A stretch of DNA of 53,266 nucleotides from Clostridia bacterium (lineage in GTDB: Bacteria; Bacillota; Clostridia; Oscillospirales; CAG-272), in NCBI GenBank assembly GCA_017505745.1, contig JAFVOP010000018.1:1-53266 (forward strand). Direction: 5' to 3'. Below the pieces are notes generated by a model. The model was not told the DNA's origin. It saw nothing but the letters and a program-made list of their open reading frames with translations, and did not search any database. Position numbers and translations under genes: made by a program. Shown here one piece after another: positions 6,102 to 32,928 of this stretch. Position 1 is the stretch's first letter. Every line of letters starts with the position of its first letter.

Positions 6102-6968
6102 ATGAATTTATGTGACATCAAAACCGTAAAGCAGATCATGGCGATGTTCCACTTCACCTTTCGCAAGGAATTCGGCCAGAACTTTTTAACCGACCGCATG
6201 GTGGTGGAGGACATTGCCGACGCGTGCTGTATGGACGAGAACAGTACCGTTTTGGAGATTGGTCCCGGAATTGGCACGTTGACCTACGAGCTGGCACTCC
6301 GTCGCCGCCGGGTGGTCTCCTTGGAGATCGACCGCGGGCTGATCCCGGTTCTCGACTTCACGCTTGGTGAATTTGACAACGTGCGCGTGATCAACGAGGA
6401 CGTAATGCAAACCGATCTGGAAGCGCTCCTGGCTCCCTATTTTGCCGAGGGTCCGGTTTCGGTGTGCGCCAATCTTCCCTACTACATCACCACGCCGATT
6501 CTCATGAAGCTGCTCGAAAGTCGGCTCCCCTTCGACTATATCACGGTCATGATCCAAGCCGAAGTAGCCGACCGCCTCGCCGCCAAGGCCGGAAGCAAGG
6601 ATTACGGCGCGATCACTGCGGTGCTTGCCTACTACGGCGAGACCGAAAAGCTCTTTACCGTCCCTGCCGACCGCTTTGTGCCCGCGCCCAAGGTCAATTC
6701 CTCGGTCATCCGCATCAAGCTTTACAAGGAACGCCCCTATCATCCGCGGGACGAGGCCCTGCTCTTCCGCACCATCAAGGCGGCGTTCGGGCAGCGTCGG
6801 AAAACGCTGGTCAACGCCCTGGGCGCCGGCTTCCCGGAGCTTTCGCGCGAGCAGATCACGGATACCGTTACTGCCTGCGGCCACGATCTCAACGTCCGCG
6901 GCGAGCGCCTTGACATTGCGCAGTTTGTCGAACTGTCGGATCGGATTTATGAGATTTTAAAGAAATAA
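6102..6968 (+). CDS. rsmA: 16S rRNA (adenine(1518)-N(6)/adenine(1519)-N(6)) dimethyltransferase
   Basis: A 288-residue SAM-dependent methyltransferase that dimethylates two adjacent adenosines in helix 45 of 16S rRNA during small-subunit assembly. Motifs: N-terminal KEFGQNFLTD, SAM-binding VLEIGPGIGTLTYELA near residue 50, acidic VSLEID, catalytic NLPYYITTPI near residue 125, and the C-terminal FGQRRKTLVNAL helix typical of KsgA/RsmA. Length is normal. The start at 6102 follows GGAGGAAAGAG. A second copy of the last 207 bases lies at 8555-8761, beyond the SulP gene. Confidence 0.96.
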   Translation: MNLCDIKTVKQIMAMFHFTFRKEFGQNFLTDRMVVEDIADACCMDENSTVLEIGPGIGTLTYELALRRRRVVSLEIDRGLIPVLDFTLGEFDNVRVINEDVMQTDLEALLAPYFAEGPVSVCANLPYYITTPILMKLLESRLPFDYITVMIQAEVADRLAAKAGSKDYGAITAVLAYYGETEKLFTVPADRFVPAPKVNSSVIRIKLYKERPYHPRDEALLFRTIKAAFGQRRKTLVNALGAGFPELSREQITDTVTACGHDLNVRGERLDIAQFVELSDRIYEILKK

Positions 6969-8554: not shown

Positions 8555-8761
8555 CTCTTCCGCACGGTCAAGGCGGCGTTCGGGCAGCGTCGGAAAACGC
8601 TGGTCAACGCCCTGGGCGCCGGCTTCCCGGATCTTTCGCGCGAGCAGATCACATATACCGTTACCGCCTGCGGCCACGATCTCAACGTCCGCGGCGAGCG
8701 CCTCGACATTGCGCAGTTTGTGGAGCTTTCCAACCGAATTTGCAACACGTTGCAAGTATAA
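8555..8761 (+). pseudogene. Duplicated 3' end of rsmA
   Basis: 207 bases that align without a gap to 6762-6968, the last 69 codons of rsmA including the stop. I count 7 substitutions in about the first 165 bases, several of them synonymous; the last 13 codons differ more (VELSDRIYEILKK against VELSNRICNTLQV). The reading frame is intact to its TAA, but there is no start region, so it cannot make RsmA. The pattern looks like the tail of a diverged rsmA allele, not a decayed fresh copy. It is probably a recombination remnant left when the rsmA-SulP segment arrived. Confidence 0.85.
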
Positions 8762-8764
8762 AAA

Positions 8765-8815
8765 ATTCACGGATATACGCTCCATCGGGAGTCGCATATC
8801 CGTGATTTTTATTTT
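8765..8815. terminator. Bidirectional intrinsic terminator
   Basis: CACGGATAT and ATATCCGTG flank an inner partly paired loop. T-rich tracts lie on both sides (ATTTTTATTTTT on plus; AATTTTTTATAC on minus). It serves the unknown gene 8809-9318. Confidence 0.8.
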
Positions 8816-9318
8816 TGCAAGGCCTTTTCCGCTTCGATCTCTGCCATGAGCTCCTCATAGAGCCGATCAAGAGTCCCCCGTAGCGTTTGACCGTTGGATT
8901 CGTAGCAATAATCAAATGCGAGCACGCAGTCTCCCTCCACCTCCGAGGAAGGAAAAAACTCCATATCCGAGCTCAGGAAAAACGCGTTTATCAAATTGGC
9001 AAATTGTTTGGAACGAAATAAAAAGGAAGGCGCCGAAACCTCAAAGGAAAGTATTTGCAAAGGCTCGGACAACAATACGGTCAACCTTGCCCCGTAAGCC
9101 ATGGACATTGCAGCCAATACCCCTGCAAGCTGTAAAACGTCCCTTTTGTGTTTGGAAGAGAGCGTTTTCCAAAAAGCATGCTCCGAAAACGCCTTTAAAA
9201 GATTCGAATCCAAATACATTCTCTCATCGCGTAGCTTTCTATTCTCGGTTTCGGTGTATTCCGCATAATAGAGCGTGCAAATAGTCACATCCTGAAGTTC
9301 CCTGTCCGTTTTTTTCAT
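8809..9318 (-). CDS. Protein of unknown function behind a structured RNA leader
   Basis: A 169-residue protein starting at ATG 9318 with GGAGGGT (9321-9327) 2 bases upstream of the start. No signal peptide or membrane span. The middle has LQLAGVLAAMSMAYGARLTVLL then LQILSFEVSAPSFLF and DMEFFPSS, suggesting an alpha/beta fold; the C-terminus is a charged helix (LYEELMAEIEAEKALQK). I recognise no family. The ribosome site lies just after the T-tract of the hairpin at 9334-9365, so expression is likely set by the RNA element upstream. A possible His-kinase-like HATPase core was considered (the weak pattern around residues 55-110) but the N/G boxes are missing. Confidence 0.6.
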   Translation of the reverse strand: MKKTDRELQDVTICTLYYAEYTETENRKLRDERMYLDSNLLKAFSEHAFWKTLSSKHKRDVLQLAGVLAAMSMAYGARLTVLLSEPLQILSFEVSAPSFLFRSKQFANLINAFFLSSDMEFFPSSEVEGDCVLAFDYCYESNGQTLRGTLDRLYEELMAEIEAEKALQK

Positions 9319-9333
9319 TTACCCTCCAAATAC

Positions 9334-9365
9334 AAAAAAGTGCGCGCAACCGAAGTCACACGCAC
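9334..9365 (-). terminator. Terminator hairpin of RNA copy 1
   Basis: An 11-bp stem with a UUCG loop (three G-U pairs included) followed by six T on the minus strand, 6 bases before GGAGGGT. Confidence 0.85.
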
Positions 9366-9514
9366 CGAAAAATGCATAGCCCCGATTGCTGCGACACAAT
9401 TTAACTTTTTTACACCATATCAACGACAAGCGTACAAAAAGGGAGCATACATTTTTACCGAAGTAAAAAATGTACACCAGTCGAGAATATGGACTCATAT
9501 TAAATTGTGTCGCA
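9334..9514 (-). ncRNA. Structured RNA element, copy 1 (leader/attenuator-like)
   Basis: On the minus strand a 15-bp stem (9500-9514 with 9390-9404, TGCGACACAATTTAA) closes a long irregular hairpin with inner pairs CCATAT/ATATGG and GAC/GTC and an apical TTCG-capped stem (TTTTTTAC-TTCG-GTAAAAA). Then comes a linker shared with copy 2, CAATCGGGGCTATGCAT, and a terminator GTGCGTGTGAC-TTCG-GTTGCGCGCAC plus six T. TATGCA in the linker can pair with TGCGTG in the terminator's 5' arm, giving a mutually exclusive antiterminator. The ribosome site of gene 8809-9318 follows at once. It matches no RNA family that I know. Confidence 0.72.
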
Positions 9515-9519
9515 TCCTT

Positions 9520-9548
9520 ATTTTATCACAAAAAAAGAGATTTGTAAA
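9520..9548 (-). promoter_or_regulatory. Promoter of RNA copy 1
   Basis: -35 TTTACA (9543-9548), 17-base spacer with a T-run, -10 TAAAAT (9520-9525). Transcription should begin near 9513, at the foot of the closing stem. Copy 2 has the same promoter layout. Confidence 0.82.
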
Positions 9549-9582
9549 CACTTGATTGCAAAAAATTCGGCATTATTTTCTG

Positions 9583-9636
9583 AATCGAATATTCGTGCCT
9601 GAAACGAGAACATACATTCTATGCATCGCCCCTTTA
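9583..9636 (-). CDS. Possible 17-residue leader or remnant peptide
   Basis: Minus-strand ATG at 9623-9625 region reads MHRMYVLVSGTNIRFRK then TAA. AAGGGG lies just before the ATG, after the terminator of RNA copy 2. This mirrors the position of gene 8809-9318 behind copy 1. It may be a short peptide gene or the remains of a second downstream gene. Very short, low confidence. Confidence 0.25.
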
Positions 9637-9641
9637 AATGC

Positions 9642-9669
9642 AAAAAAGTGCGCAGCCGAAGCCACGCAC
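9642..9669 (-). terminator. Terminator hairpin of RNA copy 2
   Basis: A 9-bp stem with a UUCG loop and six T on the minus strand. It is 2 bp shorter than in copy 1, with both arms shortened together. Confidence 0.85.
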
Positions 9670-9796
9670 CGAAAAATGCATAGCCTCGATTGCTGCGACA
9701 CAACTTCGTCTTCCAAAAGGATAAGCGAATAAGAGGTTGCATTTTTACCGAAAGTAAAATTGCCACCTTTTGAAAGACATATTCGGTTGTGTCGCA
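9642..9796 (-). ncRNA. Structured RNA element, copy 2
   Basis: Same plan as copy 1: closing stem TGCGACACAAC (9786-9796 with 9694-9704), inner pairs TCTTTC/GGAAGA and AAAAGG/CCTTTT in place of the different pairs of copy 1, apical TTTTAC-TTTCG-GTAAAA flanked by GCA/TGC, linker CAATCGAGGCTATGCAT, terminator GTGCGTGGC-TTCG-GCTGCGCAC and six T. The inner stem sequences differ from copy 1 yet both arms pair, which supports a conserved fold. GGCTATGCA can pair with TGCGTGGCT to form an alternative to the terminator. Confidence 0.72.
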
Positions 9797-9801
9797 CCCT
9801 T

Positions 9802-9830
9802 ATTCTATCACAAAAAAAGGAATTTGTAAA
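9802..9830 (-). promoter_or_regulatory. Promoter of RNA copy 2
   Basis: -35 TTTACA (9825-9830), 17-base spacer, -10 TAGAAT (9802-9807). It is nearly identical to the copy 1 promoter. Confidence 0.82.
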
Positions 9831-10029: not shown

Positions 10030-11244
10030 ATGAAAATTCTGGTTGTAAACGCCGGCAGCTCGTCGCTGAAATATCAGCTCTTTGACATGAGCAACGGCAG
10101 CGTAATGGCAAAGGGTATTTGCGAAAAGATCGGCATCAACGCCACCAGCGGAAGCATTACCCACAAGCGCCCCAACGCCGAGCCCTTTAGCGCAGACATC
10201 CCGATTCCCGATCACAACACTGCCATCAAGCTGGTGCTTGAAAAGCTCACCGATAAGGAGCTGGGCGTGATTTCCGACGTTTCCGAGATCGCGGCCGTTG
10301 GTCACCGCTTTGTGCACGGCGGCAAGCTGAAGGAATCCAACATCCTCAACGAGGAGATTCTGGCTTACATCGAATCGATCGTTCCGATCAACCCCCTGCA
10401 CGGCCCCGCATCTCTGAAGGGCGTATACGCTTGCATCAAGGCAATGCCCAACGTTCCGCAGGTCGGTGTATATGACAGTGCCTTCTTTGCGCAAATGCCA
10501 GAGGCAGCTTATACCTATGCAATTCCCTACGAGTGGACCGAAAAATACGGCATCCGCCGCTACGGCTTCCACGGAACCTCGCACCGCTACGTTTCCCAGG
10601 AGGCTGCCAAGTACATCGGCAAGCCGATTGAGGATCTGAAGATCATCACCTGCCACCTCGGCTCGGGCTCTTCGGTTTCGGCCATCAAAAACGGCATCGC
10701 CGTAGACACCTCCATGGGCTTTACTCCCCAGGACGGCCTGGCAATGGGCACCCGTTGCGGTCCTCTCGATCCCTCGATCGTCACCTTCCTGATCAACAAG
10801 GGCTTTACGGCAGACGAGCTTGACACGGCGCTTACCAAGAAGTCGGGTCTGATCGGTGTATCGGGCGTATCGAGCGACGCGCGCGACGTTTGGGCGGCTG
10901 TAGAGCAGGGCAACGAGCGTGCAAAGCTGGCTATGGATCTGGTTGTACATCACACCAAGAAGCTGGTGGGAAGCTACATCGCAGAGATGAACGGCGTTGA
11001 CGTGATCGTCATCACCGCAGGACTGGGTGAGAACGATTGCCGCGTACGCAACATGATCTTTACCAACATGGAATACCTTGGCATCAAGATCAACGAGGAG
11101 CTGAACATGAACGCACCTCGCGGAACCACTGTTGAGCTGACCGCAGAGGGCTCCAAGGTTCGCGTGCTCATCCTCCCCACCGACGAGGAGCTGATGATCG
11201 CAAAGGATACCCAGCGCCTGGCCAACGAGTTCTACGCAAAATAA
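10030..11244 (+). CDS. ackA: Acetate kinase
   Basis: 404 residues from ATG 10030 with AGGAGG upstream. It converts acetyl phosphate and ADP to acetate and ATP, the energy-yielding last step of acetate fermentation. Motifs: N-terminal VNAGSSSLKYQLFD (phosphate-binding), VGHRFVHGG, FHGTSHRYVS, TCHLGSGSS, the GFTPQDGLAMGTRCGPLD signature and ITAGLGENDCRVR. Length matches the family. No pta gene is next to it in this window; it is transcribed alone, between its own promoter and terminator. Confidence 0.97.
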   Translation: MKILVVNAGSSSLKYQLFDMSNGSVMAKGICEKIGINATSGSITHKRPNAEPFSADIPIPDHNTAIKLVLEKLTDKELGVISDVSEIAAVGHRFVHGGKLKESNILNEEILAYIESIVPINPLHGPASLKGVYACIKAMPNVPQVGVYDSAFFAQMPEAAYTYAIPYEWTEKYGIRRYGFHGTSHRYVSQEAAKYIGKPIEDLKIITCHLGSGSSVSAIKNGIAVDTSMGFTPQDGLAMGTRCGPLDPSIVTFLINKGFTADELDTALTKKSGLIGVSGVSSDARDVWAAVEQGNERAKLAMDLVVHHTKKLVGSYIAEMNGVDVIVITAGLGENDCRVRNMIFTNMEYLGIKINEELNMNAPRGTTVELTAEGSKVRVLILPTDEELMIAKDTQRLANEFYAK

Positions 11245-32621: not shown

Positions 32622-32928
32622 TTACGTAAAAAAACAAAAAGCCTCTTTTACGCAACAGTATCATACTTTGCATAAAAGAGACGAAGACTTCATTCTCCGC
32701 GGTACCACTCTGCTTGGTGTTTCCACCCACTTACCGTTGCATCCATCAATGCAACCTCTCGATAACGGGAGTTCCGTCCAATTCTACTCAAAGGATCCCT
32801 CCCTTTTTGGATTGGAAGCTCAAGGATGAGTTATATTCCGTCACGCAAATTGTCTCACACCAACCGACAACTCTCTGAAATGCAGAGCAGAACTTGTTTC
32901 CTGTCACAGCTTTTCAATAAATTATAAT
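32622..32928 (-). promoter_or_regulatory. T-box leader of the leuA-ilv operon, specifier CTC (Leu)
   Basis: The minus strand carries the T-box core AGAGTGGTACCGCGG (32697-32711). Upstream, the stem I signature GTTGGTGTGAGACAA appears, and near it GGAATATAACTCATCC, in which CTC sits where the specifier codon is expected: leucine. Downstream, CTCTTTTATGCA...TGCGTAAAAGAG plus a T-tract (about 32622-32682) forms the terminator competing with the antiterminator. Uncharged tRNA-Leu should allow readthrough into leuA. Specifier reading is by pattern, not by a folded model. Confidence 0.85.

Follow-up and report, generated by a model that had tools for sequence, protein, structure and literature searches.

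A Clostridia bacterium carries, between the divergent acetate kinase gene (10030-11244, plus strand) and a minus-strand gene for a 169-residue protein, two tandem copies of one structured RNA element, also on the minus strand (copy 1, 9795-9642; copy 2, 9513-9334). Positions are those of the window, by which we mean the whole stretch of 53,266 nucleotides that was analysed. Are these RNAs independent transcripts, as an earlier note on the same DNA held when it called them autonomous, or do they belong to the gene behind them? Our results indicate that they are members of a larger family that probably consists of cis-acting 5' leaders, in which a cassette of about 220 bp, made up of promoter and attenuator, would be placed before unrelated accessory genes. 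In the window, two such cassettes stand in tandem before one orphan gene.

Both RNAs were found where the earlier note had placed them, and their folds are clearly non-random (copy 1: -65.8 kcal/mol, z -7.4; copy 2: -67.4 kcal/mol, z -7.1; 0 of 200 shuffles as good for either). The proposed TTTACA-17-TAxAAT promoter is present in both copies, with 17 nt between its elements and TGTG before each -10. The ends given at 9513, 9642 and 9334 were kept, whereas the start of copy 1 moves from 9796 to a putative +1 at 9795; this base and 9513 in copy 2, the likely +1 positions, are the first bases of the stem P1. The compensatory blocks are also there, TCTTTC/GGAAGA with AAAAGG/CCTTTT in copy 1 and CCATAT/ATATGG with CGAC/GTCG in copy 2, as are the common linker and the UUCG-capped terminators. 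The pairing between the apical strand and the linker, the RBS and ATG after the copy 2 terminator and five more copies in the same genome had gone unnoticed, and the leader family with its covarying strand-exchange switch is larger than that note stated. The features are collected in Table 1.

Table 1. Features of the tandem leader copies and of the gene behind them (window coordinates).
Feature	Position	Strand	Basis
Copy 1, -35 element TTTACA	9825..9830	-	sequence
Copy 1, -10 element TAGAAT (extended, preceded by TGTGA)	9802..9807	-	sequence; positional profile over 121 copies
Copy 1, hairpin domain: P1, ATA internal loop, upper stem, apical hairpin	9694..9795	-	fold and family covariation
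Copy 1, apical strand AAAAATGCAACCTC, pseudoknot partner of the linker, 13 bp	9733..9746	-	pairing and covariation
Copy 1, linker GCAATCGAGGCTATGCATTTTTC; partner is the apical strand or the terminator 5' arm	9671..9693	-	pairing, covariation, fold
Copy 1, terminator hairpin with UUCG-type loop	9648..9669	-	sequence, pairing
Copy 1, U-tract; RNA 3' end if terminated	9642..9647	-	sequence
Copy 2, -35 element TTTACA	9543..9548	-	sequence
Copy 2, -10 element TAAAAT	9520..9525	-	sequence
Copy 2, hairpin domain	9390..9513	-	fold and family covariation
Copy 2, apical strand AAAAATGTATGCTCC, 15 bp with the linker	9442..9456	-	pairing
Copy 2, linker GCAATCGGGGCTATGCATTTTTC	9367..9389	-	pairing, covariation, fold
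Copy 2, terminator hairpin, UUCG-capped	9340..9365	-	sequence, pairing
Copy 2, U-tract	9334..9339	-	sequence
RBS GGAGGG immediately 3' of the copy 2 terminator	9322..9327	-	sequence
Gene behind the leader, 169-aa protein, ATG at 9318 (15 nt past the copy 2 U-tract)	8809..9318	-	sequence

A DNA search followed by the covariance models R1 and R2 identified seven leader copies in the genome itself. Because the element is palindromic, match counts may include reverse-strand shadows, and such shadows are contained in the counts for close relatives (leader in 40 of 60; covariance search, E 0.1) and for the genomes drawn from the order (48 of 147) and from the class (41 of 148; both at E 0.001). The draw across the phylum recovered only the genome itself (1 of 398), which says little because only 8 candidates per genome were scored. 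One genome, G620, has 16 matches at no fewer than 13 distinct places among the matches listed, where shadows are again possible; from one set of 100 matches, 11 shadows were removed. A pattern scan of named genomes, with a pattern that included the linker and left out the apical strand, gave at least 119 stretches. Among the 80 listed, 78 are titled as Clostridia, Clostridiales, Clostridiaceae, Oscillospiraceae, Ruminococcaceae, Ruminococcus, Monoglobus or Ruminiclostridium bins and two come from one Flexilinea bin; by record title most are from herbivore guts, and 77 of the 80 loci searched matched R2. The 247 places collected were reduced to 242 distinct copies, excluding the 5'-truncated matches L166 and L180. 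The first alignment was made without the own-genome copies on contigs C107 and C16.

The family does not appear to be a known one, as the earlier note had suspected. Rfam 15 gave no match at gathering score at the window copies, and a permissive search of them returned nothing below E 0.39; the five weak hits (E 0.39 to 7), to eukaryotic snoRNA and microRNA models, were taken as chance. A search of 20 further loci likewise gave no Rfam 15 match at the leader copies; its only matches, two tRNAs and a Gut-1 RNA, lie elsewhere in these loci, and the Gut-1 RNA (RF01706) is in a relative's contig at L075:306-375 on the plus strand. In a full-text literature search, which included passages of PMC2965389, PMC8040213, PMC11109978 and PMC8632094, no published description of the leader family was found, the thousands of supplementary candidates of PMC8040213 aside.

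All copies can be described by one order of parts, namely an extended -10 promoter, a stem at the 5' end, an ATA internal loop, a long stem, a U5/A5 apical hairpin, the linker and the terminator, usually followed by an RBS and start codon. The position of the promoter is constant in 232 of 241 copies. P1 starts at +1; the pair before +1 fails most often (10 of 71 aligned copies) and the next pair never. Covariation, by which we mean pair changes counted in the 71-copy alignment and not R-scape output, supports P1 (98.5% of cells paired, both-side changes at 10 of 10 pairs) and P2 (91.6%, 7 of 7), although these counts lean towards the model because the alignment was fitted to P1 and P2. The stem covariation predicted for a wider alignment thus holds for P1 and P2, whereas the apical hairpin P3 is weaker (84.9%, both-side change at 1 of 5 pairs) because its U-A pairs show little variation. 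Three other proposed single pairs do worse or show no covariation. The ATA motif behind P1 is present in 222 of 242 copies, against 26% by chance in shuffled neighbouring sequence. The upper stem varies in sequence and length (median 24 bp), and the own-genome copies on C16 and C107 are longer, with a side hairpin. Above the stem sits the U5/A5 hairpin, and behind it the pyrimidine stretch CUCC with additional U.

In every one of the 242 copies the apical strand A5...CUCC can pair with the linker GGRG...U5 over 12 to 19 bp, and the resulting pseudoknot is weaker than -12 kcal/mol in just three. On C107 it pairs AAAAATGCAAATTCC with GGGGTTTGCATTTTT, and on C16 AAAAGCGCAAGCTCC with GGGGTTTGCGTTTTT. 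In the 71 aligned copies 89.6% of its cells pair, with both-side changes at 11 of 15 pairs, and these pairs were absent from the model that built the alignment. None of 500 shuffles reached any of five measures, and slid controls pair in 46-67% of cells. Cognate strands pair at -16.9 kcal/mol, compared with -13.4 for swapped and -9.6 for shuffled ones, and z lies below -2 in 227 of 242 copies; on average a linker pairs just as well with about 20% of the non-cognate apical strands as with its own. A median 36-bp stem separates the two pseudoknot strands, and of 193 linkers measured 190 are 22-25 nt long; the pairing must therefore involve a sharp bend if it occurs in cis, or it may be intermolecular. 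Either the ATA loop acts as a sharp hinge or two RNAs pair mutually. We may speculate that the U5, A5 and U5 strands meet in a U-A-U triple helix.

The linker has a second possible partner. A terminator hairpin of at least 6 bp is present in all 239 copies folded, with a U-tract in 239 of 242. Folding of the linker and terminator segment by itself gives the antiterminator as the minimum free energy (MFE) structure in 162 of 239 copies, among them the two window copies; the number drops to 3-12 with dinucleotide-shuffled linkers and to 79-88 when copies exchange their linkers (ten rounds each). Once linker pairing is prohibited, an effect expected of the pseudoknot, 238 of 239 copies form the terminator; 77 of 239 are predicted to do so even in the absence of the pseudoknot. 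In a narrower comparison, with the linker limited to the 5' arm and loop, the antiterminator wins in 37 of 239 copies and is a median 3.2 kcal/mol weaker, and the duplex of linker and 5' arm is again best for cognate strands (-13.95, against -11.4 swapped and -8.4 shuffled). The mutual exclusion of linker pairing and terminator described in the earlier note was borne out, with a longer pairing than it claimed: the MFE fold of the window copies, which cannot contain a pseudoknot, has the linker-terminator hairpin in place of the terminator. The U-run of the linker is exactly 5 long in 204 of 239 copies; a single nucleotide separates its end from the terminator stem in 202 and none in 33 (an earlier measure of the 1-nt gap, blind to earlier pairs, gave 214), as if pseudoknot and terminator were stacked on each other.

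Among the 228 copies with enough flanking sequence, 124 have an SD sequence and a start codon no more than 20 nt behind the terminator and 159 no more than 40 nt behind it, compared with 240 of 3000 control U-runs (40-nt limit) in the same loci. These RNAs are therefore best regarded as 5' leaders that become a short RNA when terminated, and the description as autonomous was not upheld. To be set against this are 23 of the 228 copies with no SD-ORF in the next 260 nt and 22 in which it is more than 100 nt away. A search that started from a protein gave the same picture as the positions of the majority. A small cysteine-rich downstream protein has 19 homologues in 60 genomes, the query included, and in 18 of them the leader immediately precedes the gene in the same orientation; five of these 18 leaders are rows of the alignment behind R2. 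The 19th homologue lies 91 nt from a contig end, and the P1 3' strand, linker and terminator can be read there by eye.

From the pseudoknot, the linker-terminator pairing and the predicted antitermination without the pseudoknot, we suggest that the leaders are most likely three-way attenuators and not stand-alone small RNAs. RNA polymerase would start at the base of P1 and make the long hairpin, after which the linker would have two mutually exclusive partners, the apical strand or the 5' arm of the terminator. In the OFF state the linker would pair with the apical A5...CUCC strand, displacing the U5 strand of the apical hairpin and using up the linker; the terminator, one base later, could then fold, so that transcription stops and a short RNA is released. 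In the ON state the apical hairpin would stay closed, the linker would pair with the terminator 5' arm and polymerase would read into the gene. A signal, be it a metabolite, a protein or a partner RNA, would act on the hairpin to choose the state. Computation shows the alternative pairings, with their covariation or cognate preference and their mutual exclusion, as well as the promoter, the terminator and the gene position; which state is ON, and that the choice is regulated, we infer. Summed energies favour OFF as the probable default, with about -17 kcal/mol for the pseudoknot and -16 for the terminator against about -14 for the antiterminator plus a short apical hairpin.

Readings that do not involve control of the following gene fit the observations less well. 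Small RNAs acting in trans, the view of the earlier note, would explain why the element has its own promoter and strong terminator, a terminated form with a median of 170 nt, and a 5' end closed in a stem, because of which the RNA is probably stable; in 23 of 228 copies there is moreover no SD-ORF close behind. But an intact antiterminator would be useless in such an RNA, and the place directly before an RBS, kept for 18 of 19 members of one gene family, also argues against this view, which we consider improbable. Could the element instead be a palindromic mobile repeat, a MITE or REP that carries promoter and terminator by chance? It is multi-copy and dispersed, it forms a long inverted repeat, and two copies have a 3' half in common (L023/L051). 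However, its arms change by compensation, promoter and terminator stay at constant positions although the intervening sequence varies, and orientation and distance relative to the gene are largely constant; the viral, phage and plasmid collections yielded 1, 1 and 0 pattern matches. A mobile repeat is thus very unlikely. Type III toxin-antitoxin systems, in which the RNAs would be antitoxins ahead of a toxin gene, have the same order of parts, since ToxI is also arranged as promoter, structured RNA, terminator, RBS and gene, and several proteins behind the Clostridia leader are small. Unlike ToxI, the leader has no apparent repeat array in the RNAs read by eye, and the genes behind it belong to many unrelated families; no ToxN-like family is among the 25 most frequent Pfam families of each scan, with 18 and 33 rarer families beyond these. 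Of all the explanations we consider this one the least probable.

If the elements are cis-acting attenuators, the question is what they respond to. They might be small-molecule riboswitches, with the hairpin domain as aptamer and the apical/linker exchange as expression platform. The complete OFF/ON platform, the occurrence of one element before many genes, the tandem copies (same-strand cassette pairs at most 170 nt apart in 8 collected loci) and the conserved ATA loop would all suit this. preQ1 and SAM-II riboswitches combine terminating expression platforms with pseudoknots, and the leader resembles riboswitches of this type in its 5' position, its pseudoknot between hairpin loop and 3' tail, its exclusive antiterminator and terminator and its tandem arrangement. 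It differs from them in its mixed downstream genes, in having no match to a riboswitch class in Rfam 15 at the window copies or at those in the 20 further loci, and in the small size of its conserved unpaired core (ATA, U/A tracts and CUCC), whereas the upper stem differs between copies in both length and sequence. The downstream Pfam families, BspA-type LRR, zinc ribbon, HTH, S-layer, SLOG and others, lack a common pathway, and a riboswitch seems rather unlikely to us. We are similarly doubtful about a protein-dependent attenuator, in which an RNA-binding protein would bind and hold either the apical hairpin or the pseudoknot; little sequence is conserved besides the structure, and the unrelated gene set would fit a global protein. 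LoaP-dependent leaders likewise have an RNA hairpin that lets polymerase pass terminators. But LoaP, the sole candidate tested, exceeds the cut-off in 1 of the 147 order genomes whereas the RNA is found in 48, and dependence on LoaP was rejected. Attenuation by a leader peptide was rejected, because short frames with an SD sequence occur in only 32 of 242 copies and at scattered positions.

The genes behind the leader are diverse. The 169-residue protein of the window has no Pfam, PADLOC or PHROGs match at E 0.001, and its single other match in 98 genomes is a paralogue on own-genome contig C16; both genes are preceded by a leader copy. In the same genome, three of six downstream proteins match nothing at E 0.001. 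We scanned 171 of 174 non-redundant downstream proteins against Pfam and found BspA-type leucine-rich repeats in 22, besides zinc ribbons, helix-turn-helix, S-layer homology, copper amine oxidase N-terminal and SLOG-type domains, with no common pathway among them. Three of ten proteins picked for a closer look pass the Pfam cut-off, and 54 of 208 downstream ORFs begin with a lipobox-like sequence by a loose pattern. A role in defence was considered and dropped, as PADLOC models match one to three members each among 81 downstream proteins, mostly RmrA and HTH-type. A SLOG-like protein argues against a fixed association of gene and leader: it has 69 matches, of which 30 were examined as loci, and five of these 30 have a leader, in one case about 350 nt upstream with another gene between; at least seven of the other 39 lie directly behind listed leader matches. 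The SLOG label of these GHA/GHR-type proteins is based on weak Pfam matches and on sight.

Comparison with other attenuators helps to place the family. T-box leaders also choose between antiterminator and terminator; the T-box covariance model RF00230 has no match at 9334-9830, though it finds a T-box leader elsewhere in the window (32674-32916, minus strand, 109.6 bits). Naville and Gautheret (2010; PMC2965389) gave results on attenuator regulons for Enterobacteria and Bacillus. As in those regulons, one terminator-bearing leader stands before several non-homologous genes; unlike them, ours is a Clostridia element, and none of those in section 12 of the paper corresponds to it.

A regulatory RNA present in a third of the sampled order genomes (48 of 147) has no match in Rfam 15, and the leader family offers both a testable switch mechanism and a handle on unannotated genes. 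The genes behind the leader would be expected to answer one signal, and this signal can be searched for with the covariance model, the 242 copies and the linker rule. More tentatively, and with somewhat more doubt than confidence, we suggest a Clostridia-wide global regulatory RNA class, in which up to a dozen or more cassettes per genome would read one signal through two U5 strands competing for one A5, possibly in a U-A-U triple helix, and switch on surface, SLOG and orphan genes.

Several further observations were made at individual loci. A phage or plasmid origin was considered and rejected, with one viral contig carrying a 70.9-bit copy, one 'phage' record and no plasmid. That record, MT835845.1 (L347), is labelled Bacteriophage sp. 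from human faeces and has a 103.6-bit copy before a lipoprotein-like gene; it looks chromosomal, with a YicC-like gene named by eye. In one genome three cassettes stand in a row with a spacing of about 200 nt (G565:C48). On another contig (G018:C6), L023 and L051 have near-identical 3' halves and different 5' halves, which hints at gene conversion between cassettes. The small cysteine-rich protein (..CLGNGEQGFECCCDECDY..; L080, L089 and others, L297-L315) has no Pfam match and is present three and four times in two genomes. On own-genome contig C107 (L005, L326) the leader precedes two genes on the same strand, the first for an Arc-like DNA-binding protein and the second SLOG-like, which possibly form an operon. 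The own-genome copy on C24 (L004) lies back to back with an apparent RNase P RNA gene, recognised by eye, downstream of 1061. In the window, the rRNA adenine dimethylase gene (6102-6968, plus strand) has a partial duplicate of its 3' end at about 8563-8760 on the same strand, which adjoins the putatively leader-controlled gene and whose translated frame, read by eye, has long stretches in common with the original.
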